This document shows, piece after piece, positions 2,747 through 19,647 of a DNA stretch of 21,230 nt (the stretch's first letter is position 1; every line of letters begins with the position of its first letter). Under the pieces are notes generated by a model, which saw nothing but the letters and a program-made list of their open reading frames with translations, was not told the DNA's origin and made no database searches. This stretch comes from a virus. The translations under genes and the position numbers were made by a program. The stretch covers positions 1 through 21,230 of the IMG/VR virus record IMGVR_UViG_3300025127_000344. One strand, written 5' to 3'.

Positions 2747-4219
2747 ATGAAAGATAATTTTAACATTTATAATTGGAAACAAAACACCAATAAAAATTCT
2801 GAAAATAAAGAAAAATTCGATTTATATGAATGGAATAAAAAAAGATATTTAGGTGAATTAGATATTTCTGATGAAGAAGAAGGACAGAATGTAAGTGCAG
2901 CTAATTTATCTGGGGATGTTAATATAACTCGTGGGGGAGATGATCCTAAAACCGGAGCCGAGCAAGAATCAGATGATAACGTAGTGGGAGAAGGTGTTAA
3001 TGATAGAGAAATAAAAGGTAAACTTTCTGATTTAACTTATGATTTTTTATCTAATTATTTTGAAACAGAAAGATTTAATGCACCTAATCCTGATGATAGT
3101 TCTAGAACTATTTATAGTCCTGATCAATGGGAAGATTGGAAACAGGGTATTATGAAAAGGTTTGGGGATGTTGATATTAAACTAGATAACCAGGGTAATT
3201 TTGATAGTGATAAATTTCAAATTTTAGATAAACAATTTCAATCTGATAAAAAAGGATTTATTCAGAGTAAAGCAGCTTATTTAGATAAAATTAGACAAAG
3301 AACTAATTTTGGTTTAGATGAAGCAATGGATGCATCCAGAGATAAATTAAATCAACTTGCTATGAATATAGGATTTGATAAATTTGCTAAAACTATATTA
3401 ATGTTAAAAGATGAAAATCTTTTAAATGATATAGTTGATGCTATGAAAATGTATAAAGTTGATAATGTTAGTTATTATAACCCAGACGTATTAAAAGAAT
3501 CAATTAATTTAAGTGATTATAATGAAGATGTAGAAAAGGCTATAGATGCTGGTATTAGGGTAGGTAGTAACTTTGATGTAGAAGATGTTATGTATTATGT
3601 ACATAATAATTGGATGGCAGGAAATTTATCAGCAGATGAAGCAATGAAAAAAATAAGTAAATATATTAGTCCTATAAGAGAAAATATTGATTATGATGAA
3701 GCTTTAACATTAAGAGGGATGTTAGCTGATCTAAAAAAAGAAAGGGAGCAATTATTTAGAGATATGGAACAGGAAGCTGAACCCGAAGGTGGACCAATTG
3801 CTGATAGATATGGTAACGAATTAAATAAAATAGAAGATCGTATGTATAAAATTGCTAAACAACTCCGTGATTATGATATGAATGAAAATGTAGCTCCTAA
3901 CCATGATGGTAAGGCTGCACCTTATGGTTCTGGTTATAAAGCTGTTAAAGAAACTTTAAGGTTTATTAAAGAAAATAACCCCGAATTCACAAATGAAGAA
4001 ATTAAAGCTGAATTAAAAAATATTAAGGAATTAGGTTCATTATTAGATGAAAAAGCTAAATCCAAATTATGTAAAAGAGGTAGAGATTATATAGCTGCAA
4101 GAAAAAGAGCAGGTGAAAAATCATCTGCTTATTTATCTGGTAGAGCAGTTAAAGTTTGTAAGGGACAAATTAAAGGAGCAGGTGGTAAAAGAAAAAAATC
4201 TTATAAAGGAAAAAAATAA
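2747..4219 (+). CDS. Modular virion-associated candidate with acidic body and basic Cys-pair tail
   Basis: This 490-residue protein begins [13 protein letters not shown], and a similar phrase ([17 protein letters not shown]) follows near residue 24. Both resemble the short N-terminal motif of the 5413, 10576 and 11064 products. A Gly/Asp/Glu-rich stretch follows ([20 protein letters not shown]), then a long charged, mostly helical body. The last 55 residues are a basic module with a C-x28-C pair ([20 protein letters not shown] to KVCKGQIKG) and a Lys/Gly tail (KKSYKGKK). I recall the same tail attached to different bodies in marine phages, which suggests an exchangeable module. It is the first gene after a late promoter and ends in a TAATG junction with the next gene. 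A structural or internal-head role is inferred from context. Confidence 0.8.
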
Positions 4220-5412: not shown

Positions 5413-6411
5413 ATGGACAACTTTAATTATCAAGCTTATATTAAAAGTGGTAGAATCTACGGAAATAAGCAAGAAGTGATTTCAGAATCACAAGAAATTT
5501 CTGAAAAGAAATATAAACAAGGGTACGACGATAGAGAAGACGAATCCTTAGGTGCTAGAAGAGGCGCTGAAAAAGGTAAAAAACAATCTTTTAAAGATCG
5601 TAGGGATGATTCTTACGGTAAATTCGGAAAACGTGATGCTGAAGCTAAAGGAAAAGATAAAGGACCTGGCAGAAATAAAGTCAATAAAGAAAATGTTGAA
5701 GAAGTAGGCAAGGGTTACTTTAAGAAAAAATTTGGTGTTGGTAAAAAAGGATTTTCTATGGATAAAAGAAAAGAATTAAAAGAAACTGTTCAAGAAGCTT
5801 ACACTAAAATTCAAGAAGGTTCTTATCCTTTTGACCAATGTGTGTCTGACAATGAAGGAAAGTATGGTGAAATGGGAGCTAAAAGAGTATGTGGTGCTAT
5901 TAGAGCCGCTTACGGTGAAGGTTTAGTTAATGAAATGGATGAAGTTTCTTGGAATGATAAAAATAATCCATCTAGAAATAGGGCAGTTGGAGAAAGAGAT
6001 CCTAAAAAAGTAGGTAAATCTACTGCTGCTTATTCTATTAACGAAGAAGTTTCTACTATAAAAATGTCCGAATTAAAATCTAAAATAAGAGAAGACATTA
6101 TTGAAATTCTATCAGAACAAGATGAGGAAGTAGATGTAGATGTTGAAGATGAAGTTAAAGCTGATGTTGATGTTGATGTAGAAGATGATGTAGCTGTAGA
6201 CGCTCAAGGTGATGATATAAACATTAAGAAAAAATCAGTTAAAGCTGATATTGAAGTTGGTTTATCACCTACAGAAGAATTAGTACAAGATTCACTTGAG
6301 GCAGCGATGAAAGCTTCTGAAGCATTAGGTGACGAAGTTTTAACTGATCAGATAGGAAATACTATTACTTATTTTACAAGACAATTTGTAGTAGGTAATA
6401 AATCTGACTAG
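5413..6411 (+). CDS. Modular virion-associated candidate with capsid-targeting-like N-terminus and acidic repeat
   Basis: This 332-residue protein starts MDNFNYQAYIKSGRIYGNK, aligning with the N-termini of the 10576 and 11064 products but without the Glu before the Gly. A basic/acidic low-complexity stretch follows (DDREDESLGARRGAEKGKK). Near residues 135-172 is a Cys-pair module (YPFDQCVSDNEGKYGEMG then RVCGAIRAAYG, C-x16-C). Residues 217-236 (KMSELKSKIREDIIEILSEQ) match the first residues of the 14752 product, and residues 237-263 are alternating acidic/Val (VDVDVEDEV). A conserved-looking C-terminal helix ends the protein. It looks assembled from interchangeable phage modules. It directly follows an exact late promoter, so late expression is likely. 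No enzymatic motif is seen. Confidence 0.8.
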   Translation: MDNFNYQAYIKSGRIYGNKQEVISESQEISEKKYKQGYDDREDESLGARRGAEKGKKQSFKDRRDDSYGKFGKRDAEAKGKDKGPGRNKVNKENVEEVGKGYFKKKFGVGKKGFSMDKRKELKETVQEAYTKIQEGSYPFDQCVSDNEGKYGEMGAKRVCGAIRAAYGEGLVNEMDEVSWNDKNNPSRNRAVGERDPKKVGKSTAAYSINEEVSTIKMSELKSKIREDIIEILSEQDEEVDVDVEDEVKADVDVDVEDDVAVDAQGDDINIKKKSVKADIEVGLSPTEELVQDSLEAAMKASEALGDEVLTDQIGNTITYFTRQFVVGNKSD

Positions 6412-6412
6412 T

Positions 6413-8206
6413 ATGCTTAATGAACGCAAGCTTACCGAAAGAGAACTAGATAAACGCGAAGAAGCTATAAAAGGTTTGTTGTCCAATAAGCGTAAATTAG
6501 TTCAAAAATATGGTAAGGATGCGGAAAAGGTTATGTATGGTATTGCAACTAAACAGGCTAAAAAGAAAATTAAAGATATGAATCTTGAAAATTTAAAGGA
6601 ACTTATAAAACAAACACTCCAAAAAGAACAAGGTCCTGCAACTAATGTAGAACCCTATCATGACCAAACAAAAACAGTAGATACTGGATTTTCTGGTAGA
6701 GCCGATTATGGTGAAGAAGATAAAGCATTAGGCAGAGAAGACGAACTCGAAATGAGAGGTTTAGAAGAAGGTCATGGTTTAGGTCAAAAGGATTTAGATA
6801 CCTTAGAATCACTTAGAAATCAAATAGAACAAGGAACACTAGATAGTAAAAAACAAGATGAATTTGTTAAAGTTCTTGATTTTCTAATTAAATCCAATAT
6901 ATTACAAGATAAAACAAAAGATTTATCTAAAGGTAAAGTTGATGAAAATCTTATTAATGAATTTATAGGGGGCAATACAGAAAAAAGATTATCTATTCTA
7001 TTTGATAAATTAGTTCCTGGTTCTGGTAATTCCGATTCTGTAGAAGGTGAAATTATTAGGGCTGTTAATAGAATTATTTATAGATGGGGTAATGATGGAG
7101 ACCATTTTGCAATGGGTTATGGAGCTGAAACAGCAGGACCTGCTATGGAATATTTAACTGATGCATCTGATATTCCCTTAGAAATAAGAACTAAATTTAA
7201 GGCTTGGGAAAATGATAACTTTAGTAAAGATTATGATAAGGGAGAATTAATAGATTTAGCCCAAATAGCTTTACAACACGTTGAAATGAAAGTAAAAGAA
7301 GATGATCTTACTCCTAATCAAGACGATTTGTTTAATTATGGAGACAAATATATTGATTATGTTAGAGATATGGAAGATGAGGAAGATGAGTATGATGATT
7401 ACTATGATGATGATGAAGAAGACTATATGCAAGAAGATTTAGATGTAGGTCATGTTGATAATGAACCTCATATGCTTAAAAAAGAATTAGCTAGAGCGGG
7501 TCAAATGATTCAAATGCTTTATAGAGCAGTAGACAAATATGATGATCAGGGAGAAGTAGATTTTCCACAATGGTGGCAGAAAAAAATAATTCAAGCTAAT
7601 GCCATGTTAGATAGTGCTTTTGATTATATTGATGGTGAAGAAATGGTAGCTAAAATAGATGCTGTAATTGGTAGTATGGAACCAGTTGAGGTGGATATAG
7701 ATGTTGTTAATGAAGAAGAAGATATTCAAAATAGATTAGATGCTGAAAAGGCAATTAGACAAACTTTAAAAGATGAAGGTGGTGCCGCTGGTTTAAAACC
7801 ATTAGTTAAAGCTGTGAAAAAGTTTGGATTTAATAAAGAAGACTTAATTAAGTTATTAAAAAGAACAGTTAAAGTTGATAAACATAAACATGGTGATTAT
7901 ATATTAACCCCAATAAACGAAAAAGTAACTAAACCAGAAGAAAAAAAACTTAAAAAAATAAAAAAAGAATTAGATAAGGCATCTAAAATGCATAAATCAC
8001 AAGCTGATAGAATTGCAAAAATTGTTAAAGAAAAATTAACAACAGGTGTTGAAGAAAAAAAATTAACTGCTGCTGAAAAAAGAAAAAAGGAAGATATCAT
8101 TATGGCTCTTAAAAAACAAAAAGGTGGTAAGAAAAAACTAGAACCAGTTGATTATGCTGTAGCTACAGATAGAGCTAAAAAATTAGCAGAAAAAAATGAA
8201 AAATAA
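6413..8206 (+). CDS. Large modular acidic/basic phage protein
   Basis: This 597-residue protein lies one base after the previous stop. The N-terminal module (KLTERELDKREEAIKGLLSN to about residue 65) is helical and basic. A middle region of unknown fold follows. An Asp/Glu/Tyr cluster near residues 320-345 (EDEYDDYYDDDEEDYMQED) precedes EDLDVGHVDNEPHMLKKELA and VDFPQWWQKKIIQAN. I recall this last segment as a conserved module in marine T4-like phages. A short acidic VEVDIDVVNEEED lies near residue 424. The C-terminal 120 residues are very Lys-rich and include KLTAAEKRKKEDI. No signal peptide, membrane segment or catalytic motif is visible. It is probably virion-associated; the exact role is unknown. 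Confidence 0.8.
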   Translation: MLNERKLTERELDKREEAIKGLLSNKRKLVQKYGKDAEKVMYGIATKQAKKKIKDMNLENLKELIKQTLQKEQGPATNVEPYHDQTKTVDTGFSGRADYGEEDKALGREDELEMRGLEEGHGLGQKDLDTLESLRNQIEQGTLDSKKQDEFVKVLDFLIKSNILQDKTKDLSKGKVDENLINEFIGGNTEKRLSILFDKLVPGSGNSDSVEGEIIRAVNRIIYRWGNDGDHFAMGYGAETAGPAMEYLTDASDIPLEIRTKFKAWENDNFSKDYDKGELIDLAQIALQHVEMKVKEDDLTPNQDDLFNYGDKYIDYVRDMEDEEDEYDDYYDDDEEDYMQEDLDVGHVDNEPHMLKKELARAGQMIQMLYRAVDKYDDQGEVDFPQWWQKKIIQANAMLDSAFDYIDGEEMVAKIDAVIGSMEPVEVDIDVVNEEEDIQNRLDAEKAIRQTLKDEGGAAGLKPLVKAVKKFGFNKEDLIKLLKRTVKVDKHKHGDYILTPINEKVTKPEEKKLKKIKKELDKASKMHKSQADRIAKIVKEKLTTGVEEKKLTAAEKRKKEDIIMALKKQKGGKKKLEPVDYAVATDRAKKLAEKNEK

Positions 8207-8667
8207 TGACAGCAGCCGAATTAAGACAAAAAATAAGACTACTTGCTAAACAAGTATATTCTGATGTTGTAAAAACTGACGAAGCAGCTCTTGCCTATCC
8301 AGAAATTCAAAAATTTCCTCCTTTAAAAGATATTATTGTAAATTTATTGACTAATGAATTTGATTCATTTATTGAATCAGTTGATTGGGTAGCCCCAAGA
8401 CCTACAACTTTTAGAATTAATTTATTAAATGGTGAAAGTTTTCTTTTAATGTACACTATTAAAAGTTGGATAGGAACGGTAGAGGGAAAAAAATATTATT
8501 TACTTAATCTAGACGAAGAAGAAAGATGTGCTTTAGCGATTAATAGACTACTAAGAGTAGGCCCAGCTAGTGGTGCTGAAGTTGAAGGCGAAGCTGATGC
8601 TGGAGCAGATACAGGTGAAACTGAGGTTGAAGATGAAGTGGATGTTAACGTAGACGTAGAAGCATAA
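8206..8667 (+). CDS. Conserved-looking small phage protein with acidic tail
   Basis: This 153-residue protein begins at a TAATG junction. The first 115 residues look like a compact globular alpha/beta domain (FRINLLNGESFLLMYTIKSW, then KKYYLLNLDEEERCALAINR). The remaining residues are an acidic Ala/Gly/Glu/Val tail ending EVEDEVDVNVDVEA. The tail repeats the V-D/N-V-D-V pattern of the proteins encoded at 5413, 6413 and 8667, suggesting a shared linker or interaction motif. I do not recognise the fold. Its position within an uninterrupted late run suggests a structural or assembly role. Confidence 0.75.
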   Translation: MTAAELRQKIRLLAKQVYSDVVKTDEAALAYPEIQKFPPLKDIIVNLLTNEFDSFIESVDWVAPRPTTFRINLLNGESFLLMYTIKSWIGTVEGKKYYLLNLDEEERCALAINRLLRVGPASGAEVEGEADAGADTGETEVEDEVDVNVDVEA

Positions 8668-9722
8668 TGGATGTATTTGATAAATTATTAAAAGAACATA
8701 GCTGGAAATTTAAAAAAGGATATCCAGATATTAAGGACATTGAAGATAAAACTCTTTTAGAAAAAATTATTAATGAATATTTAATTGAAGCTGAAGAAGA
8801 AATTAATATTGATGTTGAGGATAAGGAATCTTTAAAGGTAAAAAAAGCTTCACCTCCGCAACCAACCAAAGGTTCAAAAGTTTATAATGACACTATAAAA
8901 AACGCTTTAGATGTAGAAGTTATTCCTACAACACCTTCTAAATATAAATTTAATGGTTTAGGAGGAGCTACCTTTACTGAAACGGTTAAAGAAGCAGATA
9001 AAGCAATTTTTAGTAAATTATATCCTGTTAAACCACCTAAAACAGGTCAAGAAGTAGGTACTGCAGGTTCATTAGGAGTAGGTAATGGAGAGATAGCATT
9101 ATATTGGTTATATAATTTTTCTAATAGTGATGTAGTGGTAACCGAAGGTAGAGAAGGAGATGACCCCGATCTTAGATTTAATGATGTAGGTGTAGAAGTA
9201 AAAGCTTATAAAAACCCTGATGGCACAGTTGGATTAGGTAGATTTGGTGCTGATAAGGAAAATTTAGCACTTTTAAGTATAATCTTTGGATTAAATACTT
9301 TAAGTAAGGCATTAGGTGATGAACCACCAGCGAGATCAATTAATCCAACAAATTTTAATGGGCAACAATTGGAAGATGCCATGCAAGTTCTTATTGATTT
9401 TGATAGTATTGATGGTTTAAGTAGTTTGGCAGATCAATACCCATTATTTAGATCTATTCAAACTAATATAGATTCTGTTAAATCTAAATTAGGTGACTTT
9501 AGTGATGCTAAAACAGGTGCAATACTTATGGCCGATAAATTAGTAAGATCTAAATTAGAAAGAAAACCAGGTAATGGTGGATACTTAGCTAATGTTAAAC
9601 CAGATGGAGGATTAAAATTTTTCCAAATTGATTTGGATAGGCTAAAAGATGAAGATTTAATTAATTCATTTAAAGTATCTCAAAGTGCTATTTTAGTTAA
9701 ATTTTCAAAAATTTTTAATTAA
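8667..9722 (+). CDS. Candidate PD-(D/E)XK nuclease-fold protein
   Basis: This 351-residue protein starts at a TAATG junction. The N-terminal 40 residues (MDVFDKLLKEHSWKFKKGYP) form a module I recall at the start of various marine phage proteins. An acidic EEEINIDVEDKE follows at residues 42-54. The central domain has the arrangement expected for a PD-(D/E)XK nuclease core: E142 in a helix-like GEIALYWL, then D168 in DDPDLRF, and E177-V-K179 in GVEVKAY. The rest is helical. The spacing fits a restriction-like fold, but only a few residues define it, so the nuclease call is tentative. If correct it could process DNA in the head or after entry. It might also be a virion protein with a similar fold and no activity. 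Confidence 0.65.
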   Translation: MDVFDKLLKEHSWKFKKGYPDIKDIEDKTLLEKIINEYLIEAEEEINIDVEDKESLKVKKASPPQPTKGSKVYNDTIKNALDVEVIPTTPSKYKFNGLGGATFTETVKEADKAIFSKLYPVKPPKTGQEVGTAGSLGVGNGEIALYWLYNFSNSDVVVTEGREGDDPDLRFNDVGVEVKAYKNPDGTVGLGRFGADKENLALLSIIFGLNTLSKALGDEPPARSINPTNFNGQQLEDAMQVLIDFDSIDGLSSLADQYPLFRSIQTNIDSVKSKLGDFSDAKTGAILMADKLVRSKLERKPGNGGYLANVKPDGGLKFFQIDLDRLKDEDLINSFKVSQSAILVKFSKIFN

Positions 9723-9724
9723 TT

Positions 9725-10333
9725 ATGTGTAAATGCGGATGTAATACTTGTGAAACAATAAGAGGTCCTTTACTTACAGAAGGTAAAGTTAAGGTAAAAC
9801 CTTTATTATCTGAAAATCTACAATATCATTTAGATAAGAATATTCCTTTATTTGAATCAGTATTTAGAATTGGTTCTAATGCTCACTTAAACTTAATTAG
9901 AGAAGCTAGAAAAATGTATTCTAGAGATATAATAGATTTATGTGAGGAAGATGAGGGCTTAATTAAAACACATTTAGGAGAATTTGGAATATATGAAGGT
10001 GAAAGTGTACCTTTAGATTTACCTATGTTAAATGAAAAGAAAAAAGCTAAGAAAAAGAAAAAAGATCCACCAATTGGAAAACCAAAAAGAGGAGGACCTA
10101 AAGCATATTATGTATATGTAAGAGACCCTAAAACAAAAAGAATTAAAAAAGTAACATTTGGTTCTGGTGGTTTAAGAGCAAAAATTAGAAATCCTAAAGC
10201 AAGAAAAGCATTTGCAGCTCGTCATAGATGTTCCCAAGCAAAAGATAGAACAACAGCTCGTTATTGGTCTTGTAGATTACCTAGGTATGCTAAACAATTA
10301 GGATTAGGTGCTAATATGAATACTTTTTGGTAA
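9725..10333 (+). CDS. Cys-rich leader plus basic Cys-pair module, candidate processed head protein
   Basis: This 202-residue protein opens with a cysteine cluster (MCKCGCNTCETIRGP), then LLTE/GKV at E19, which fits the gp21-type (I/L)-x-E/G site. A second candidate site is MLNE104 followed by KKKAKKKKKDPPIGK, a linker also seen at two domain borders of the first gene. The C-terminal 95 residues form a basic module (KAYYVYVRDPKTKRIKKVTF to RYAKQLGLGANMNTFW) with a C-x13-C pair (HRCSQ to YWSCRLP). I recall this tail in many marine T4-like phages, function unknown. The upstream junction is TAATTATG, identical to those before the 11064 and 12011 ORFs. Metal binding by the leader and packaging in the head are both inference. 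Confidence 0.8.
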   Translation: MCKCGCNTCETIRGPLLTEGKVKVKPLLSENLQYHLDKNIPLFESVFRIGSNAHLNLIREARKMYSRDIIDLCEEDEGLIKTHLGEFGIYEGESVPLDLPMLNEKKKAKKKKKDPPIGKPKRGGPKAYYVYVRDPKTKRIKKVTFGSGGLRAKIRNPKARKAFAARHRCSQAKDRTTARYWSCRLPRYAKQLGLGANMNTFW

Positions 10334-10334
10334 A

Positions 10335-10583
10335 ATGAATCCCTATAAAGACAGTTCTAATATAAGAAGTTTTTCTAAAAATGTTAAAAAGCTAGAATTA
10401 GTTTGGCATAAAGATGATGAAGATAGAAATATAGAAATATTAGAAGGTAAAGGTTGGCAAATGCAATTTGATGATGAATTACCTTTTAAGTTAGTAAAAG
10501 GAGATCATATATTTATAAAACGACATCGTATTCATAGAATACATAAAGGTGTAACTGATTTAAAAATTAGAATAAATGGATAA
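10335..10583 (+). CDS. Small cupin-like protein
   Basis: This 82-residue protein has the layout of a minimal single-domain cupin: GWQMQFDDELPFKLVKGDHI, then a short gap, then KRHRIHRIHKG and a final strand DLKIRING. The Gly-Asp before a beta strand and the His-rich motif match the two short cupin motifs, although the metal ligands are not complete by eye. It overlaps the start of the 10576 gene by 8 bases. It may be a small structural or sugar-binding protein. Enzyme activity cannot be claimed. Confidence 0.7.
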   Translation: MNPYKDSSNIRSFSKNVKKLELVWHKDDEDRNIEILEGKGWQMQFDDELPFKLVKGDHIFIKRHRIHRIHKGVTDLKIRING

Positions 10584-11061
10584 TTTCGATTTAAGAAAAT
10601 ATTTGGCGGAAGGTAAATTATACGAAAACGTATTAGCTCAAAAACTTAGGGATGAAGCAAAACACCCGGATTCAAAAGTAGGTGCTGCCATACTTAACAA
10701 ATATGCTGAAAAAGTAGAAAAAGCTAATAAAGAAGATTATGTAAAACTTCTAAAAGATATGGAAAGTGAATTAATATCTAAACACCCCGATACATTTAGT
10801 GGTGAAGATGACATTCCAGGAAGCTTTTTATTTGAAGATAAATTGAACGAACAACTAGATTTAAGTAGCCGTGAATACCCAGCTAAAAAATTATTTGCTT
10901 TAATTGCTCGTGATTTAAAATTTTCTTCAAGAGTGCAAGATAATGAAATGTTAAATGCAGACGAAGCACTTGAAATTATGAGAAAAGTAATAGAAATTGA
11001 AGGTACAGAATCATCACCAGAAGCAGCATTAGGTGAATATATAGCTAACGGAGAATTATAA
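10576..11061 (+). CDS. Candidate capsid-targeted internal protein A
   Basis: This 161-residue protein begins MDNFDLRKYLAE/GKLYEN. The first 16 residues share 11 identities with the 11064 product and resemble the T4 internal-protein targeting sequence (MKTYQEFIAEA). L-A-E12/G13 fits the T4 prohead-protease rule. A helical, charged body follows, with a second possible site at KLNE/Q. The segment YPAKKLFALIARDLKF looks like a small conserved module. The gene overlaps the cupin gene by 8 bases and is followed 2 bases later by the 11064 gene. No catalytic motif is seen. Internal-head location is inferred from the N-terminus. Confidence 0.75.
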   Translation: MDNFDLRKYLAEGKLYENVLAQKLRDEAKHPDSKVGAAILNKYAEKVEKANKEDYVKLLKDMESELISKHPDTFSGEDDIPGSFLFEDKLNEQLDLSSREYPAKKLFALIARDLKFSSRVQDNEMLNADEALEIMRKVIEIEGTESSPEAALGEYIANGEL

Positions 11062-11063
11062 TT

Positions 11064-12008
11064 ATGGATAACTTTGATTTAAGAAAATATATATCTGAAG
11101 GAAGAATATTTAAAGAAGAACTAAGTTATGCTTTTAGTGAGTATGATTTTACTATTGAAGATGATGCCTATCAAGATGAAGTAGAAGTAAAGATTAAAAA
11201 GGAATTAAAAAAAGTTCAAAGTGAACCTCTTGAAATTCCCGAAAAAGACCTACAAGCTATAATTAAAAATGCTGAAAACTATTTTTCTAAAGAAGCTAGA
11301 AAAGAAGAAAAAGCTAATAGAAATCCTAGAAAAATTAAATCTACTGAATTTGCACAGTTTGCAGCTGATTACTATACTGAAGAATACTATCCAGAAAATT
11401 ATGGAAAAGATTATCCTGATAAAAGGCCTGTTAGCAAACCAGTTTCTGATGATCAAGAGAGATTGAAGAGCTTTGATGGTATAGATGTTCCTTCAACTCC
11501 CGAAGAACGTGAAATAAGAAGAAGAAGCAAGTTGCGTTTAAAGTATGGCCATGCTGCTTATTTTATTCGTAATAAAGATTTACCTAAGGACCTTTTTTAT
11601 TCAATGCCTAAAGATGAATTTGATAAAACATTTGGAAGAATAGTAGATGAGCCTACACAGGATGAATTAATTGACGGCAATATAGATATATTATTTGATA
11701 AACCAGTAAATGAAGTTAGACAATTTTTTGATGACAAACAATTGGCAAATGATATTTTAAGAAATCAAGCTGATGTTGAAAGACAATTGGGTACTAAATT
11801 AAAGGATTTTAAATTTAGTGGTGATGACAGAGTGTTTACTGCTGTTGATCCTGAAGAGTTTACTGTTTATGCTTTTAAATATAGAGACGTAAGAGATCCT
11901 AAATTTCCTTATAAAGATGAAGAACCATTTTTATCAGATGAAGGATATGAACCTCAAATAATAAAAGTAGATGGTAAAAAAGTTGCAGTAACTGTAGGAA
12001 ATATATAA
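11064..12008 (+). CDS. Candidate capsid-targeted internal protein B
   Basis: This 314-residue protein begins MDNFDLRKYISE/GRIFKEE, with I-S-E12/G13 fitting the gp21-type site. After the shared N-terminus the body differs from the 10576 product, so only the leader is shared. The body is highly charged. It includes a basic patch (EREIRRRSKLRLKYGHAAYF), then alternating acidic and hydrophobic stretches (KDLPKDLFYSMPKDEFDKTF), and ends in a strand-like VDGKKVAVTVGNI. No known domain is recognised. The gene is the last sizeable ORF before the terminator at 12122 and is followed after 2 bases by the micro-ORF at 12011. Confidence 0.75.
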   Translation: MDNFDLRKYISEGRIFKEELSYAFSEYDFTIEDDAYQDEVEVKIKKELKKVQSEPLEIPEKDLQAIIKNAENYFSKEARKEEKANRNPRKIKSTEFAQFAADYYTEEYYPENYGKDYPDKRPVSKPVSDDQERLKSFDGIDVPSTPEEREIRRRSKLRLKYGHAAYFIRNKDLPKDLFYSMPKDEFDKTFGRIVDEPTQDELIDGNIDILFDKPVNEVRQFFDDKQLANDILRNQADVERQLGTKLKDFKFSGDDRVFTAVDPEEFTVYAFKYRDVRDPKFPYKDEEPFLSDEGYEPQIIKVDGKKVAVTVGNI

Positions 12009-12168: not shown

Positions 12169-12192
12169 ATGTGTAAAACTTGTATTAAATGA
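12169..12192 (+). CDS. Possible 7-residue leader ORF MCKTCIK
   Basis: A short frame, ATG at 12169 to TGA at 12190-12192, encodes MCKTCIK with one CxxC. Its stop overlaps the start codon of the FAD gene (ATGA), which would allow coupled translation or attenuation. If transcription starts as predicted from the promoter at 12139, the ATG at 12169 may lie upstream of or at the transcript start, so expression is doubtful. Confidence 0.15.
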   Translation: MCKTCIK

Positions 12193-13493
12193 ATGTAGTA
12201 ATAATAGGAGCAGGTGTAGCAGGTGTTAATGCTGCTACAAAATTAGTTGATAATAATTTTAAAGGTAAAATCACTATTATAGATATGGGCTTGGATCCAT
12301 ATTTAAGACCATATGAAGAAGTAATGACAGGTTACTTAGGTGCAGGTGGTTGGTCTGATGGTAAATTAACTTATTCTACTCAAATTGGTGGACAATTATC
12401 TAAGTACGTAGGTGAAGAAAAAGCTATGGAGCTTATGAAACAAGTAGTAGATAATTTTAGTAGATTCCACCCTTATCCAGAACAAATTATATTATCAAAT
12501 CCAGATAAAGAACCAGATTTTATTAAACCATATTTTGGTTTAAGATTATTTCCATGCTGGCACATTGGCACTGATTATTTACATGAAATTGGTAAAAGTT
12601 GGTATGATTATTTAATATCTAAAGGTGTTGAATTTCACTGGGAAACTAAAGTTAGTGATATTAATTTTAAAACAAATGAAGTTACATTTAAATCTACCAA
12701 ACCAGAATTTGCTAACATGGATAATGATGGTATTTTTTATGATAAACTTATATTTGGTGTAGGTAAATCAGGTATTGATTTTACTTCTGAAATCATGCAA
12801 AAATATGATTTACCAACAGAAGAAAAACCAGCTCAAGTAGGTGTTAGATTTGAAGCACCACAAAAGCACTTTCAAAAATTAATTGATATAGCTTATGATT
12901 TTAAGTTATATAGAAAATTAGATAATGTTAGTTTAAGATCGTTTTGTACTAATAATAATGCTGCATATGTAGCGGTAGAAGAAACTTATGGTGATCATAG
13001 TTACAATGGTCACGCTAAAAAAGATGAGTCATTTAGAAATGATATGACTAATTTTGGTATATTAATGGAAGTTAGAGGTATTGAAAAACCATTTAAGTGG
13101 GCAAGAGAATTAGTGGGTAAAGTACAAGAAAATAGTACAGGTTTATTCTATAGTCCTACTAGAGAACCCTCAATGACATCAGAAGGAGTAGATGTATCAG
13201 CTACTAAAATAGATAATTTAGATGTAGTTAAAGATGCATTCCAAGGATATTTTAAGTATATTGATGATTTTATCAATGATATGAAATTAGTATTTCCTAC
13301 GTTGAAAGACGATTGGGGGATCTATGTACCTGAGGTAAAATACCTAGCTCCTGAACCATTAGTTAACTATTCTGATTTATCATTAACTAAATATCCTGAT
13401 GTGCATTTTGTAGGTGATGCGTTGTCTGCAAGAGGGATTTCGGTATCAGGGGCTCACGGTACACTTGTTGCTGAAAAAATTTTGGAAGTTTAA
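12189..13493 (+). CDS. FAD-dependent oxidoreductase (COG2509-like)
   Basis: This 434-residue protein starts MNVVIIGAGVAGVNAA, a Rossmann GxGxxG (residues 7-12) at the very N-terminus that would bind FAD. The C-terminus has the second FAD motif VHFVGDALSARGISVSGAHG followed by a helix, in the style of uncharacterised FAD-dependent dehydrogenases (COG2509), where a GDG/S-x-x-RGI motif precedes the last helix. The middle includes YEEVMTGYLGAGGWSDGKL and PAQVGVRFEAP, consistent with a substrate domain. The substrate is unknown. The gene lies just after a strong terminator and has its own host-type promoter candidate, so it is probably expressed separately from the flanking late genes. It is an uncommon metabolic gene for a phage and was probably acquired from a bacterium. 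Confidence 0.8.
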   Translation: MNVVIIGAGVAGVNAATKLVDNNFKGKITIIDMGLDPYLRPYEEVMTGYLGAGGWSDGKLTYSTQIGGQLSKYVGEEKAMELMKQVVDNFSRFHPYPEQIILSNPDKEPDFIKPYFGLRLFPCWHIGTDYLHEIGKSWYDYLISKGVEFHWETKVSDINFKTNEVTFKSTKPEFANMDNDGIFYDKLIFGVGKSGIDFTSEIMQKYDLPTEEKPAQVGVRFEAPQKHFQKLIDIAYDFKLYRKLDNVSLRSFCTNNNAAYVAVEETYGDHSYNGHAKKDESFRNDMTNFGILMEVRGIEKPFKWARELVGKVQENSTGLFYSPTREPSMTSEGVDVSATKIDNLDVVKDAFQGYFKYIDDFINDMKLVFPTLKDDWGIYVPEVKYLAPEPLVNYSDLSLTKYPDVHFVGDALSARGISVSGAHGTLVAEKILEV

Positions 13494-14751: not shown

Positions 14752-15459
14752 ATGAAAAAATCTGATTTAAAAAATTATATTAGAGAAAATATCCTCTCTA
14801 CATTATCTGAAAGTATTGAAGACGAAACAGCGGCTTTAGAAGATTATGAAGCTAAACTAGATGATGTAATTAAGAAAAAACAAGAAGCAGGTATCGAAGA
14901 ACAAGTAGATAAATTTAATGTGGATGTTTTTGGCTATAAAACTAAATATTATAAGGTATGCCCTGGAGCTAAAGCATTTATGGATAAAGTAATGGATGGT
15001 GCTTATGGCGATATGTCTCAAAAACAAAACGAAGTTATAAGAATTGCTAAATTACATGATTTACTTTTTATTAGAGAATTAAGAGCATTAAAAGATCCTA
15101 AATACGCAATGTCAGTAATACCTCAAGCAGAATATATAGCTGAAGAAATAAAGGATAATGTTCAATTTTTAGGTATTCCTGTTGCAGATGTGGATTATGT
15201 AGATAATCATGTTGAAATAATTAAGGACGCAGCTAAAAAAATAAATGAAGAAGATGAACCATCTGATTCAGATATTAGAAAAAATAAAAGCTTAGCTAAA
15301 ACAGCCGAGGATTTAGCTTTAATTCAAGCAGATATGAGATCTTTAGCAAGAAAATATTCAAAAGCCAAGGGTGAGGAAAAGGAAGAATTGTTAAATAAAT
15401 TAAAAGAAAAAACTAAACTTAAAAAAGAGTTAGAGAATATTTTAGATAAAAAATTATAA
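14752..15459 (+). CDS. Modular helical protein, candidate internal head protein
   Basis: This 235-residue protein begins MKKSDLKNYIRENILSTLSE. Eleven of these 20 residues are identical to an internal segment of the 5413 product (KMSELKSKIREDIIEILSEQ). Possible gp21-type sites are I-R-E12/N and L-S-E20/S. The body carries KYYKVCPGAKAFMDKVMDGA, a motif I recall in other marine phage proteins, then a charged helical region. A coiled-coil-like Lys/Glu C-terminus (EEKEELLNKLKEKTKLKKEL) ends the chain. It follows a late promoter and joins the spanin-like gene by TAATG. Role unknown. Confidence 0.75.
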   Translation: MKKSDLKNYIRENILSTLSESIEDETAALEDYEAKLDDVIKKKQEAGIEEQVDKFNVDVFGYKTKYYKVCPGAKAFMDKVMDGAYGDMSQKQNEVIRIAKLHDLLFIRELRALKDPKYAMSVIPQAEYIAEEIKDNVQFLGIPVADVDYVDNHVEIIKDAAKKINEEDEPSDSDIRKNKSLAKTAEDLALIQADMRSLARKYSKAKGEEKEELLNKLKEKTKLKKELENILDKKL

Positions 15460-15842
15460 TGGGGTATAAAGAAAGGGTTATTTATATATTAAAAATTATT
15501 GTTCTTATTAGTATTATAGTTTGGTTATTATATTCTGATAGGGAAAGATACGTTGAAGAATATAATGCTAAAATAGAAGCATTAGAACAAAAAGTTGATT
15601 CTCTTCATAGTATAAATGATGAATTAACTTTTAAAATTGATACCCTAAATGGACAAATACTAAGTTTGGATAAAGAAATTTATTTAAAAAATAATAGAAT
15701 AAATAATTTAAAATATGAAATTAGTACAAAAGTTGATGCTGTTGATAATTTTAATGATGATGAGCTTGAAAGGTTTTTCACAGAACGATACCGTTCAGTC
15801 CTCGATTCAATTAAAAAAGCCAATAGCAAAATTAGTAATTAA
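15459..15842 (+). CDS. Candidate inner-membrane spanin (Rz-like)
   Basis: This 127-residue protein has one N-terminal membrane segment (about residues 8-25, IYILKIIVLISIIVWLLY) followed by a long coiled coil rich in Glu, Lys, Leu and Asn (about residues 30-95). It ends with DELERFFTERYRSV. Cytoplasm-in, periplasm-out topology with a coiled coil is that of an i-spanin, which links the inner and outer membranes at lysis. The last 128 bases of the gene overlap the start of the 15715 gene in another frame, like the Rz/Rz1 pair. No conserved enzymatic residues are visible. The spanin call rests on architecture only. Confidence 0.6.
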   Translation: MGYKERVIYILKIIVLISIIVWLLYSDRERYVEEYNAKIEALEQKVDSLHSINDELTFKIDTLNGQILSLDKEIYLKNNRINNLKYEISTKVDAVDNFNDDELERFFTERYRSVLDSIKKANSKISN

Positions 15843-16128
15843 GGATTTAATTACGGGTGATGGAGCTAAAGAAGAATTAGTTATAACATCTGATAAAATT
15901 AAATTATTAGAACAAAAAATAGTTTTAAAGGATAGTATAATTACTAATTTAAATTCTCAAATAGGGAATTTTAATTCTATTATGAGTACTAAAACAGATC
16001 AACTAGCTTTATCTAGGGAGTTATCTGAAAAACTTCAAGCGGATTTAAAAAAGCAAAAGCTAAAAACTAGATTAGTAGGAGGCGTTGGAATAGCAGTAGC
16101 AGTTGGTATCTTAGTTATAGCTAAATAA
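15715..16128 (+). CDS. Overlapping secreted coiled-coil protein, candidate spanin partner
   Basis: This 137-residue protein starts inside the 15459 gene in the +1 frame and extends 286 bases past its stop. The start is supported by a signal peptide (MKLVQKLMLLIILMMMSLKG, then FSQ/NDTV) that lies wholly in the overlap; the next ATG downstream would lose it. The mature part has KPIAKLVIKDLITGDGAKEE, a coiled coil, and a C-terminal hydrophobic segment (LVGGVGIAVAVGILVIAK). It has no lipobox, so it is not a classical o-spanin lipoprotein. It may be a spanin partner anchored by its C-terminal segment, or another lysis or envelope protein. The terminase gene starts 1 base after its stop. Confidence 0.7.
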   Translation: MKLVQKLMLLIILMMMSLKGFSQNDTVQSSIQLKKPIAKLVIKDLITGDGAKEELVITSDKIKLLEQKIVLKDSIITNLNSQIGNFNSIMSTKTDQLALSRELSEKLQADLKKQKLKTRLVGGVGIAVAVGILVIAK

Positions 16129-16129
16129 T

Positions 16130-17701
16130 ATGGCTGATTTAAAAAAAGTAATAAGACAAGAATACCTTAAATGTGCTAAAGATCCTGTTCATTTTATGCG
16201 TAAATATTGTTATATCCAACATCCTCAAAGGGGAAGAATTCAATTTAATCTATATCCATTTCAGGAAAAAGTATTAACTTTATTTAGAGATAATCCATAT
16301 TCTATAGTACTTAAATCAAGACAATTAGGTTTATCTACTTTATCAGCTGGCTATTCTTTATGGTTAATGATATTTCATAAGGATAAAAATATTCTTTGTA
16401 TAGCTACAAAGCAAGAGACAGCTAAAAACATGGTTACTAAAGTTAAGTTTATGTTTGAAAATTTGCCCTCTTGGTTAAAAATAGATGCATCCGAAAATAA
16501 TAAACTTAATTTAAGATTAATTAATGGTTCTCAAATTAAAGCAACATCCGCTAGTAGTGATGCAGGTAGATCAGAAGCAGTATCCCTACTACTAATAGAT
16601 GAAGCAGCTTTTATTGATAATATTGGTGAAATTTGGGCATCAGCTCAACAAACACTAGCTACTGGAGGTGGTTGTATAGCTTTAAGTACTCCATATGGTA
16701 CTGGAAATTGGTTTCATCAAACTTGGACTAGAGCAGAATCATCGGAAAATGAATTTTTACCTATAAAGTTACCTTGGTATGTTCATCCTGAAAGAGATGA
16801 AGCTTGGAGAAAAAGACAAGATGAATTATTAGGTGATCCTAGAATGGCAGCTCAGGAATGTGATTGTGATTTTGCTACTTCTGGTGATATTGTTTTTTAT
16901 CCTGAATTTATAGAATATTATGAAAAATCTTATATAAAAGATCCAATGGAACGTAGAGGTATAGATCAAAATTTATGGGTTTGGGAATCTCCTGACTACA
17001 CTAGAGATTATATGGTGGTTGCAGACGTTTCTAGAGGTGACGGAAAGGATTATTCTGCATGTCATGTAATAGATGTAGCTAATAATGTACAAGTAGCTGA
17101 ATATAAAGGACAATTAGGAACAAAAGAGTATGGTCATTTATTAGTTGGTTTAGCTTCTGAGTATAATGAAGCTTTATTAGTTATTGAAAATGCTAATATA
17201 GGTTGGGCTACTATTCAAGTTGCACTTGATAGAAACTATTTAAATTTATATTATTCTCCAAGAGGTGATTCAAATAATGCTAATACTTATTTTGATAAGT
17301 ATCAAGATCATTCAAAAATGGTACCTGGCTTTACTATGTCTTCTAGAACTAGACCTATGGTAATAGGTAAATTTCAAGAATATTTAAATGATAAAGGTGT
17401 TACTATTCAATCTAAAAGACTAATAGAAGAAATGAAAACCTTTATTTGGAGAAATGGTAGACCTGAGGCACAATCGGGTTATAATGATGATTTAGTTATG
17501 TCTTTTGGTATTTCTATGTATATTAGGGATACGGCTCTTAAATTTAGGCAGCAGGGTTTAGATATAACTAAAAATGCTTTAAACAATATTAAAGTTAATA
17601 GAACTGCCTATAAAGCTGGTTATTTTTCAAGTGGTGCAGATAACCCTTACCATATAGATACTAAAAATGGTAAAGAAAATATTGATTGGCTTTTTAAATA
17701 A
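16130..17701 (+). CDS. terL: Large terminase subunit, T4 gp17-like
   Basis: This 523-residue packaging motor pumps DNA into the prohead and cuts it. The N-terminal ATPase has Walker A KSRQLGLST (S63-T70; T4 has SRQLGKTT), Walker B LLLIDEAA (D157-E158) and the coupling motif STPYG (186-190). The C-terminal RNase H-like nuclease has D299 (VVADVSRGDG), E353 (VIENAN) and D453-D454 (YNDDLVMS). All catalytic positions are present. In Walker A the usual Lys before the Thr/Ser is Leu, and the Arg of SRQ would take its role. The protein is shorter than T4 gp17 (about 610 residues). The portal gene lies just downstream, with no small terminase, sheath or tube gene between them. Confidence 0.97.
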   Translation: MADLKKVIRQEYLKCAKDPVHFMRKYCYIQHPQRGRIQFNLYPFQEKVLTLFRDNPYSIVLKSRQLGLSTLSAGYSLWLMIFHKDKNILCIATKQETAKNMVTKVKFMFENLPSWLKIDASENNKLNLRLINGSQIKATSASSDAGRSEAVSLLLIDEAAFIDNIGEIWASAQQTLATGGGCIALSTPYGTGNWFHQTWTRAESSENEFLPIKLPWYVHPERDEAWRKRQDELLGDPRMAAQECDCDFATSGDIVFYPEFIEYYEKSYIKDPMERRGIDQNLWVWESPDYTRDYMVVADVSRGDGKDYSACHVIDVANNVQVAEYKGQLGTKEYGHLLVGLASEYNEALLVIENANIGWATIQVALDRNYLNLYYSPRGDSNNANTYFDKYQDHSKMVPGFTMSSRTRPMVIGKFQEYLNDKGVTIQSKRLIEEMKTFIWRNGRPEAQSGYNDDLVMSFGISMYIRDTALKFRQQGLDITKNALNNIKVNRTAYKAGYFSSGADNPYHIDTKNGKENIDWLFK

Positions 17702-17724
17702 TATTTATAATTATAAAATAAAAC
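17702..17724 (+). promoter_or_regulatory. Late promoter candidate before the portal gene
   Basis: The 23-base block 17702-17724 is pure A/T with two overlapping TATA boxes, TATAATTA (17706-17713) and TATAAAAT (17712-17719). It starts with the TATTTATAA block of the other late boxes. The first box leaves 14 bases to the ATG at 17728, close to the usual 13. It is the weakest match of the five. Confidence 0.5.
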
Positions 17725-17727
17725 TAT

Positions 17728-19647
17728 ATGGCTAATAAAAGTGTATTTAGTAGATTAAGAAGATTATTTTCTACTGATGTTGTTATAAGAAATGTAGGAG
17801 GAAACCAACTAAGAGTAATAGATAGTGGTAAAATCCAATCAATGGGTGAAATTGAAACTAATTCACTTATTGATAGATATAATAGAATATATTCTACTAG
17901 TCCTTCTTCCCTTTATGGAGCTCAATTTAATTTAAACTACCAATATCTTAGACCAAGACTATATTCAGAATATGATGTCATGGATCAGGATGCTATTATT
18001 GCTTCAGCACTTGATGTTCTATCAGATGAATCTACATTAAAAAATGACATGGGAGAAGTTCTTCAAATTAGAAGTGCTAATGAAGATATACAAAAAATTC
18101 TATATAATTTATTTTATGATGTACTAAATATAGAATTTAATTTATGGATGTGGATTAGACAAATGTGTAAATACGGTGATTTTTTCCTAAAATTAGAAAT
18201 AGCAGAAAAATTTGGTGTTTATAATGTTATTCCTTACACTGCGTATCACATAGAAAGACAGGAAGCATTTAATGATGCTAACCCTTCTGAAATAAGATAT
18301 AAATACGCACCTGATGGTTTAATTAGTTTAAGTTCAGGTTACTACCCAGTACAATCTAATAGAGCGGTAGAAGATGATACAACAGGTATATTTTTTGATA
18401 ATTATGAAATGGCTCATTTTAGATTAGTATCTGATGTTAATTATCTTCCTTATGGTAGGGCTTATATAGAACCTGCCAGAAAATTATTTAAACAATATAC
18501 ATTAATGGAAGATGCTATGCTAATTCATAGAATAGCTCGCGCACCAGAAAAACGTATATTTTATATGAATGTTGGTTCTATACCACCTAATGAAATAGAA
18601 ACATTTATGCAAAAAACAATATCTCAATTAAAAAGAACTCCGTTTTTAGATGAAAAAACAGGTGATTATAATTTAAGATATAATATGCAGAATATGCTTG
18701 AAGATTTTTATATTCCTATTAGAGGTAATGATACAACAACCAAAATAGAAACAACCCCAGGTTTACAATATGATGGTATTCAGGATGTTGAATATTTAAG
18801 AGGTAAGTTATTTGCTGCACTTAAAATACCTAAAGCATTTTTAGGTTATGAAGAGGGTGTAGAGGGTAAGGCTACTCTAGCTGCCCAAGATATTAGATTT
18901 GCTAGAACAATTGAAAGAATTCAAAGAATAGTTTTATCTGAATTAAATAAAATTGCATTAGTACACTTGTATACTCAAGGTTATACAGATGAAACTTTAA
19001 CTAATTTTTCACTTCAGATGACCAGTCCATCGATTGTATTAGAGCAAGAAAAAATTGAATTACTTAAAGGAAAAACTGAATTAGCAGGTCAATTATTAGA
19101 ACAAGGATTAGTTCCATCTGATTGGATTTATGATAATGTATATCAATTTAGTGAGGATCAATTTGAAGAATATAGAGATTTAAGTAGAGAAGATGCTAAA
19201 CGTAAGTTTAGAATAGCTCAAATTGAGGCAGAAGGAAATGACCCAGTACAAACAGGTAAATCTTATGGTACACCTCATGATTTGGCCTCATTATATGGTA
19301 AAGGAAGAATGTATACAGACCCAGGTAATGTACCAGAAAAAGATAAATATGCTGCTGATGATCCTAAATTAGGAAGACCAGTAGTATCTAACACTAAACG
19401 AAATAAACAAGAGGATAATTTTGGTAAAGATAGACTTGGAGTAAAAAGAATGAAAGGAAAGGATAAAAATGATTCCGATGGTATAAAACAAAATTTTAAA
19501 GGAAATAGCCCATTAGCTTTAGAGGATGCAAGAACTACATATCTAAAAAATAAGGATATGTTTAAAAAATTAAATGAAAAAAAGTTAATATTTGAAAAAG
19601 ATGAAAATTCATCTTCGCTTCTTGATGAAAACCAATTAAAGAAGTAA
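17728..19647 (+). CDS. Portal protein, T4 gp20-like
   Basis: This 639-residue protein would form the dodecameric ring at the head vertex through which DNA passes. Recognisable gp20 features are YDVMDQDAIIASALDVLSDE in the N-terminal wing, LPYGRAYIEPARKLFKQYTL, IHRIARAPEKRIFYMNVGSI, the MLEDFYIPIRG block, and IEDVEYL-type QDVEYLRGKLFAALKIPKAF. It is longer than T4 gp20 (about 520 residues). The extra length is a low-complexity, charged C-terminal tail from about residue 515 onward (KRNKQEDNFGKDRLGVKRMK). That tail includes KKLNE/KKL and SLLDE/N, which fit the gp21-type cleavage rule. The gene has its own late promoter candidate. Confidence 0.93.
   Translation: MANKSVFSRLRRLFSTDVVIRNVGGNQLRVIDSGKIQSMGEIETNSLIDRYNRIYSTSPSSLYGAQFNLNYQYLRPRLYSEYDVMDQDAIIASALDVLSDESTLKNDMGEVLQIRSANEDIQKILYNLFYDVLNIEFNLWMWIRQMCKYGDFFLKLEIAEKFGVYNVIPYTAYHIERQEAFNDANPSEIRYKYAPDGLISLSSGYYPVQSNRAVEDDTTGIFFDNYEMAHFRLVSDVNYLPYGRAYIEPARKLFKQYTLMEDAMLIHRIARAPEKRIFYMNVGSIPPNEIETFMQKTISQLKRTPFLDEKTGDYNLRYNMQNMLEDFYIPIRGNDTTTKIETTPGLQYDGIQDVEYLRGKLFAALKIPKAFLGYEEGVEGKATLAAQDIRFARTIERIQRIVLSELNKIALVHLYTQGYTDETLTNFSLQMTSPSIVLEQEKIELLKGKTELAGQLLEQGLVPSDWIYDNVYQFSEDQFEEYRDLSREDAKRKFRIAQIEAEGNDPVQTGKSYGTPHDLASLYGKGRMYTDPGNVPEKDKYAADDPKLGRPVVSNTKRNKQEDNFGKDRLGVKRMKGKDKNDSDGIKQNFKGNSPLALEDARTTYLKNKDMFKKLNEKKLIFEKDENSSSLLDENQLKK

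Follow-up and report, generated by a model that had tools for sequence, protein, structure and literature searches.

A portable N-terminal leader on unrelated proteins of T4-like phages that probably works like the T4 capsid-targeting sequence

In bacteriophage T4, the proteins IPI, IPII, IPIII and Alt carry a capsid-targeting sequence (CTS), which is cut by the protease gp21. The T4 CTS propeptides span 10–19 residues, of which residues 4, 7, 8 and 10 have a role, and according to the same paper T4-like phages may generally use the CTS as a means of placing proteins in the head (PMC9026906). In phage P1, a reporter is carried into the head by no more than 30 N-terminal residues of DarB (PMC9024508), and in the giant phages SPN3US and phiKZ a gp245-type prohead protease removes the N-terminal propeptides of internal proteins, some of them at multiple sites (PMC10052503). 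The polyvalent proteins of phages and conjugative elements comprise several domains and are presumed to enter the host along with the DNA (PMC5512222). Here we describe a short N-terminal leader that is probably a capsid-targeting propeptide of the T4 kind, so that the proteins behind it would be head cargo and would be trimmed by a protease.

The window, by which we mean the whole 21,230-base viral record analyzed here, is a fragment. Its terminase large subunit gene (starting at 16130) and T4-type portal gene (gp20, starting at 17728) serve as the head-gene anchor (16130..19647; PF03237, E 3.2e-14, and PF07230, E 1.3e-64) and place the window in a T4-like phage; these and the leaders, modules, sites and border genes located below are on the plus strand. 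The closest isolate is Flavobacterium phage immuto_2-6A (immuto), whose portal is 55.5% identical. Its genes include those for an S77 prohead protease (PF03420, E 8.9e-35) and gp23 (PF07068, E 6.3e-84). In the relatives of the window, gp21, gp22 and gp23 come after the terminase and portal genes. As the window stops upstream of gp21, its own S77 protease is deduced from synteny in these relatives.

Two open reading frames of the window, 10576-11061 (161 aa) and 11064-12008 (314 aa), encode products with a common start. Eleven of the first 16 residues are identical, the highest value among all gene pairs in the window, and none of 20,000 composition-matched simulations reached 11, the best pair attaining at most 9. 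The leader of the 10576 product, MDNFDLRKYLAE↓GKLYE↓ (10576..10626; arrows denote candidate protease sites), appears from its sequence, the leader model and the distribution to comprise a targeting part and two candidate sites, E12 and E17, and the leader of the 11064 product reads MDNFDLRKYISE↓GRIFKE↓ (11064..11117). The first candidate sites are thus LAE↓G and ISE↓G. The earlier note had claimed that the two proteins share this start and then diverge completely, and both points hold: with the whole 10576 product as the query, a search of the window gave a match to the 11064 product that was limited to residues 1-25 (E 1.7e-4), and no similarity was detected past residue 25. Pfam and PHROGs returned nothing significant for either product. 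AlphaFold2 models built from single sequences were of low confidence (mean pLDDT 57 and 45). In the 10576 product, both the leader and the residues that precede the LFEDKLNE join were poorly structured, with a low-confidence helix at residues 6-11. These models are in line with a separate leader and fall short of proof.

The leader DNA of the two genes differs at 11 of 48 positions, including several silent third-position changes, which indicates that the protein sequence is what is kept. This bears on the idea that the shared start is a recombination joint or a translation-start element that duplicates with the genes and plays no part as a peptide. When the window is compared with its close relative L123, breakpoints do fall at leader DNA, and some leader pairs are 82-94% identical in DNA. 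However, third codon positions vary while the residues are kept, leaders with different DNA and length variants preserve the hydrophobic spacing and the glutamate, and internal leader copies lie inside proteins (L099, L038), where no start is needed. Because codons vary and internal copies exist, we rejected the joint or start element as the main explanation and consider it very improbable.

We scanned sequence collections with a degenerate DNA pattern for M-x-N-F-D/N-L-x-K-Y/F-L/I-x-E. The pattern matched at least 119 stretches in viral contigs and five in bacterial and archaeal genomes (257 Gb), all five on phage contigs binned into metagenome genomes; four of these five contigs carry relatives of the window's genes. 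The phage contigs L222-L225 of the leader group are binned into metagenome-assembled genomes labelled Woesearchaeota, Pelagibacter, 'bacterium' and Flavobacteriaceae, which is contamination of those assemblies. A set of 178 leader proteins fell into about 94 unrelated cargo groups (E 1e-4), a rough count in that single-linkage grouping may merge unrelated proteins via a shared module, and many leader loci hold two to four leader genes in tandem. A profile search of relatives, which the earlier note had proposed as a check, found one to six copies of the leader per leader record and four in immuto (profile A1); the same profile had no match in T4, RM378 or Mel-JY01. A tblastn search of isolated phages with a 20-residue leader gave no match even at E 10 though immuto carries the leader, showing that this query is insensitive. 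No description of the leader was found in the open-access literature.

Pfam gave few good matches for 99 cargo representatives (one Zeta_toxin, E 5.5e-15, and DUF5872, E 3.4e-7, the others being weak), and the function of most cargoes therefore cannot be stated. By its P-loop sequence, we assign the Zeta_toxin match to a leader protein at L027:8743-9561, whose cargo resembles a zeta-toxin-type kinase, and this product is a candidate injected effector.

In the window, the two leader genes occupy a variable slot between conserved border genes (10335 and 12189). On the left is a small cupin-like protein (10335..10583; 64-84% identical in relatives, with a weak Cupin_2 match only), and on the right an FAD/NAD-dependent oxidoreductase-like protein (12189..13493; 71-95% identical in relatives; PF07992, E 3.4e-9). 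In close relatives the borders stay and the slot contains zero to three leader genes with different cargoes. L162, L164 and L123 have two, L214 has three, L216 and L124 have a single one, and L200 has none. Of the nine portal relatives that reach about 4 kb upstream of the terminase, six had at least one leader gene there. A few portal relatives (L163, L200 and L219) lack a leader gene in the slot, a point against the targeting reading.

The looser leader versions that the earlier note had seen on the 5413 and 2747 products are real, as relatives carry matching variants. Relatives of the 5413 product have MSDFNYQDYLRNNPLLQE, MDNFDYKNYLKNNPLLNE or MDTFDYKLYIANNPLLKE, and the variant in the window, MDNFNYQAYIKSGRIYGNKQEVISE↓ (5413..5487), has lost the first site; its relatives are in L123, L222, L109, L064, L096 and L005. 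The 2747 product carries a tandem W-type variant, NFNIYNW...↓ (2747..2857), with the same repeated unit in its relatives in L123, L222 and L005, and relatives of this product have MDNFDIYKWKQN..NRYLNE or MKDNFDIHAWNRERYLGK. A further leader had been missed: the 14752 product begins with MKKSDLKNYIREN-ILSTLSE, and this related leader, MKKSDLKNYIRE↓NILSTLSE↓ (14752..14811), has an N-terminus kept in relatives, several of which have a different downstream sequence. Elsewhere in the window, the first 40-60 residues of the 8667-9722 product (F-K-KGYPD....D...LE) are common to L164, L216, L200, L122 and immuto gene 193, and the remainder differs; this N-terminus is perhaps a second kind of portable N-terminal module.

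The leader is linked to T4-type head genes. A T4 portal was found in 14 of the 24 leader records of at least 30 kb, and an S77 protease in 13 of these 14; in the lone portal record without S77, the portal stands at the edge of the contig. Wherever a leader record covers the head genes in full, it encodes an S77 (gp21-type) prohead protease. The isolate immuto combines its four leader genes with S77 and gp23. We compared 80 portal relatives of the window: wherever S77 was found (31 loci), it is located 2.5-4 kb downstream of the portal and is followed by gp22 and gp23. The gp23 N-terminus in the window's relatives keeps (L/I/V)-x-E sites of its own (LLE↓G, ILE↓N and VVE↓S/E/Q). In about 10 distinct phages, which were selected because they have leaders, the gene that starts at most about 30 bp after gp21 and before gp22 bears the leader or a close variant, and the cargo of these genes is unrelated in each phage.

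These positions also bear on whether the leader is an address elsewhere, such as a compartment built by the phage, a part of the tail or a site on the host membrane. Some leader genes are indeed located outside the head cluster, with immuto gene 3 adjoining the DNA polymerase gene, and the T4 ip genes are placed likewise. The leader genes between gp21 and gp22 in several phages speak against such a destination, as do the charged leader sequence devoid of a secretion signal and the (L/I)-x-E sites, which fit both the S77 rule and the sites of gp23 itself. We regard an address other than the head as having a very slim chance.

The earlier note took the leader for a T4-like targeting sequence that directs cargo into the prohead and is removed at E12/G13. 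The targeting part of this interpretation has indirect support: the leader is a portable element confined to phages, goes together with T4-type head genes and S77, and is spaced like the T4 CTS. Removal at E12/G13 has to be revised, because E12 is only one of two conserved (L/I)-x-E sites and the second marks the start of the cargo. A second [LI]-x-E falls within residues 13-25 in 129 of 165 distinct leaders, as against 11-23 per 165 further along these proteins. This second site is positioned at residue 17-18 after G13 and at residue 23-24 after the N13-KLTTNSK type; in the window it is E17 in the 10576 product and F-K-E18, a weaker match, in the 11064 product. E12 formed part of the scan pattern, and its invariance there is partly built in; outside the pattern, E12 is present in 28 of 49 N-termini matching only the loose start, and seven other N-termini lack E12 but retain an (L/I)-x-E slightly further downstream (PLLNE, PLLKE, PLLQE, ILLQE, YLLQE, TLLKE and KLNE).

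The border with the cargo can be followed in one module, F-I/V-G-x-E-L-E..., which begins right after the second site in L043 and L057 and after an internal LTEGRLLKE in L098. In the window, the LINE↓ site of the 6413 product (6950..6961) stands just before the FIGGNTEKR module, and related modules come after the second site of the leader in L043 and L057. In our view, a mature end after the second site is somewhat likelier than one after E12, and cutting at both would be possible. T4 shows both layouts, with MKTYQEFIAE↓A in ipII and ipIII and MKTFKEFTSTTTPVSTITE↓A in ipI.

The 10576 and 11064 products are two-module fusions with relict leader ends inside, a feature unseen in the earlier note. 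In the 10576 product, module X (residues 18-84; 10627..10827) is missing from the close relative L123 according to the alignment and the DNA breakpoints. The relict leader end LFE↓DKLNE↓ (10828..10851) has the L123 counterpart KYLAEGKLNE, and module Y (residues 93-161; 10852..11058) is identical in L123. There, the second module is 100% identical from KLNE to the end and sits directly behind the leader (KYLAEGKLNE↓QLDLSS), while the window has about 75 additional residues inserted inside the leader and LFEDKLNE↓QLDLSS at the join. In the 11064 product, module A (about residues 19-190; 11118..11633) is present in a 1196-residue mosaic protein of L122, alongside modules of the 6413 and 8206 products. 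The relict leader end FDKPVNE (11694..11714) aligns with EGRLNE in L123 and EGKLNE in L124, and module C (residues 219-314; 11718..12005) is 95-96% identical in both relatives, with a DNA identity of 93.8% and a breakpoint at about 11707. These last 96 residues, 96% identical in L123, follow the leader directly there (LAEGRLNE↓RQFF) and follow another module and FGEGKLNE↓RQFF in L124, the join in the window being FDKPVNEV↓RQFF. At the module joins, the window and L123 cease to match at the DNA level, where they are otherwise about 93% identical. L123 thus has modules Y and C as separate proteins, each directly behind a leader, as would be looked for in a processed polyprotein.

[LI]-x-E lies within -4..+6 of 262 of 832 distinct module joins, whereas positions drawn at random from these proteins gave 160 ± 11 (at most 190 over 500 trials). 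The joins were taken from local alignments with genes outside the head included, so that the true enrichment may be larger or confined to a subset. Among control motifs, only [LI]-x-D was in slight excess. The enrichment suggests that the module strings are polyproteins cut inside the head. The right edge of the window (from 21062) truncates a protein that contains IAE↓AMDGGQLFDYF, and the MDGG module of this protein follows LLNE, SIKEA, PINEA or QLNEA in other proteins.

Could the leader dock on the prohead core or scaffold and stay uncut, the (L/I)-x-E motifs being incidental? Targeting and cutting are separable in T4 (PMC9026906), and the P1' residues in the leaders are varied, often E, N or D, both of which would suit an uncut leader. 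Incidental motifs are hard to reconcile, however, with the enrichment of the second site past the targeting part and of (L/I)-x-E at module joins, with a second site that persists where E12 is lost, and with S77 being present wherever the head genes are covered. Permanent retention of the leader is therefore improbable in our view, and we continue with a leader that is cut.

The resemblance of this leader to the T4 CTS lies in a short N-terminal peptide of 10-19 residues on unrelated small proteins, in its spacing (aromatic or L, two residues, aromatic, I/L, x, E), in the S77 prohead protease of the same phages and in cargo sets that vary between relatives. The same N-terminal sequence occurs on several unrelated proteins of one phage, the leader ends in a gp21-type (I/L)-x-E, and S77 is encoded in 13 of the 14 portal-bearing leader records and in immuto; for the window's phage it is expected from synteny in relatives. 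Sequence homology to the T4 CTS was not detected with A1, so the likeness is one of spacing and motif, and we file the leader as a CTS-like variant, common descent being unsupported. The principle is known from T4, and the leader would be a variant that works like the T4 CTS rather than a proven member. In contrast to T4, most leaders here have two successive sites, the cargo groups number about 94, a locus can hold two to four tandem copies, cargo modules are stacked with internal sites, and the P1' residue is often E, N or D instead of A, G or S. The P1 system likewise has an N-terminal capsid-targeting signal, but the Dar proteins have neither a shared consensus nor an (L/I)-x-E leader common to many cargoes. 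SPN3US and phiKZ resemble the present case in the N-terminal propeptides of their internal proteins, some with several protease sites; they differ in their cutting rule (A-x-E or S/A/G-x-E), in propeptides mostly longer than 100 residues and in having no single portable leader. For polyvalent proteins, processing has been proposed to occur via built-in metallopeptidase domains, whereas here no such domain was found and the joins carry head-protease sites.

By analogy with T4 (PMC9026906, PMC5694885), we infer that the M-x-N-F-D-L-K/R-K-Y/F part, predicted to form a short helix, would bind the prohead core and bring the protein into the assembling head. An S77 (gp21-type) protease would then cut after (L/I)-x-E, at E12, at the second site at 17-24, or at both, and the freed cargo would stay in the head and presumably be injected with the DNA. 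Cargo modules are swapped downstream of the leader and are also strung together, separated by (L/I)-x-E. Each of the 10576 and 11064 products is thus probably a precursor of two modules, and separate release of their stacked modules is a prediction. A broader proposal, to which we give slightly less than an even chance, is that marine Bacteroidota T4-like phages possess effector cassettes, in which a two-site leader loads proteins or strings of them, the head protease splits the strings in the capsid, and the leader allows a phage's injected effectors to be read off from sequence.

Relative to the open-access literature, the leader family with its variants, its scale, the second site as a module border and the module strings with relict leaders would be new. 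If this reading of the leader is right, a tag of 12-25 residues marks the head-carried, injected proteins of a large, mostly uncultured group of marine phages. Nearly all leader-marked proteins are without known function, and the injected set would become a list testable in one isolate, immuto. Prohead proteases would also mature strings of cargo modules, which to our knowledge is not known in T4, and the leader would be a new tag for loading proteins into phage heads.

Three further observations concern other genes of the window. In the 9725-10333 product, both ends are conserved among relatives, and the stretches inserted between them are unrelated and vary in length; its relative in L200 has 357 aa compared with 202, and the insertion adjoins an (L/I)-x-E (MLNE↓K). 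The 311-2146 product joins a basic N-terminus and a weak metallopeptidase-like stretch to a 5′ nucleotidase-like domain (phrog_2643, E 9.9e-24); immuto and L122 encode the nucleotidase part as a protein of its own. Just upstream of the terminase gene, the frames 15459-15842 and 15715-16128 overlap by 128 bases in different phase. Both are 55-84% conserved in relatives and each has an N-terminal hydrophobic stretch, an arrangement that resembles an Rz/Rz1-type pair.
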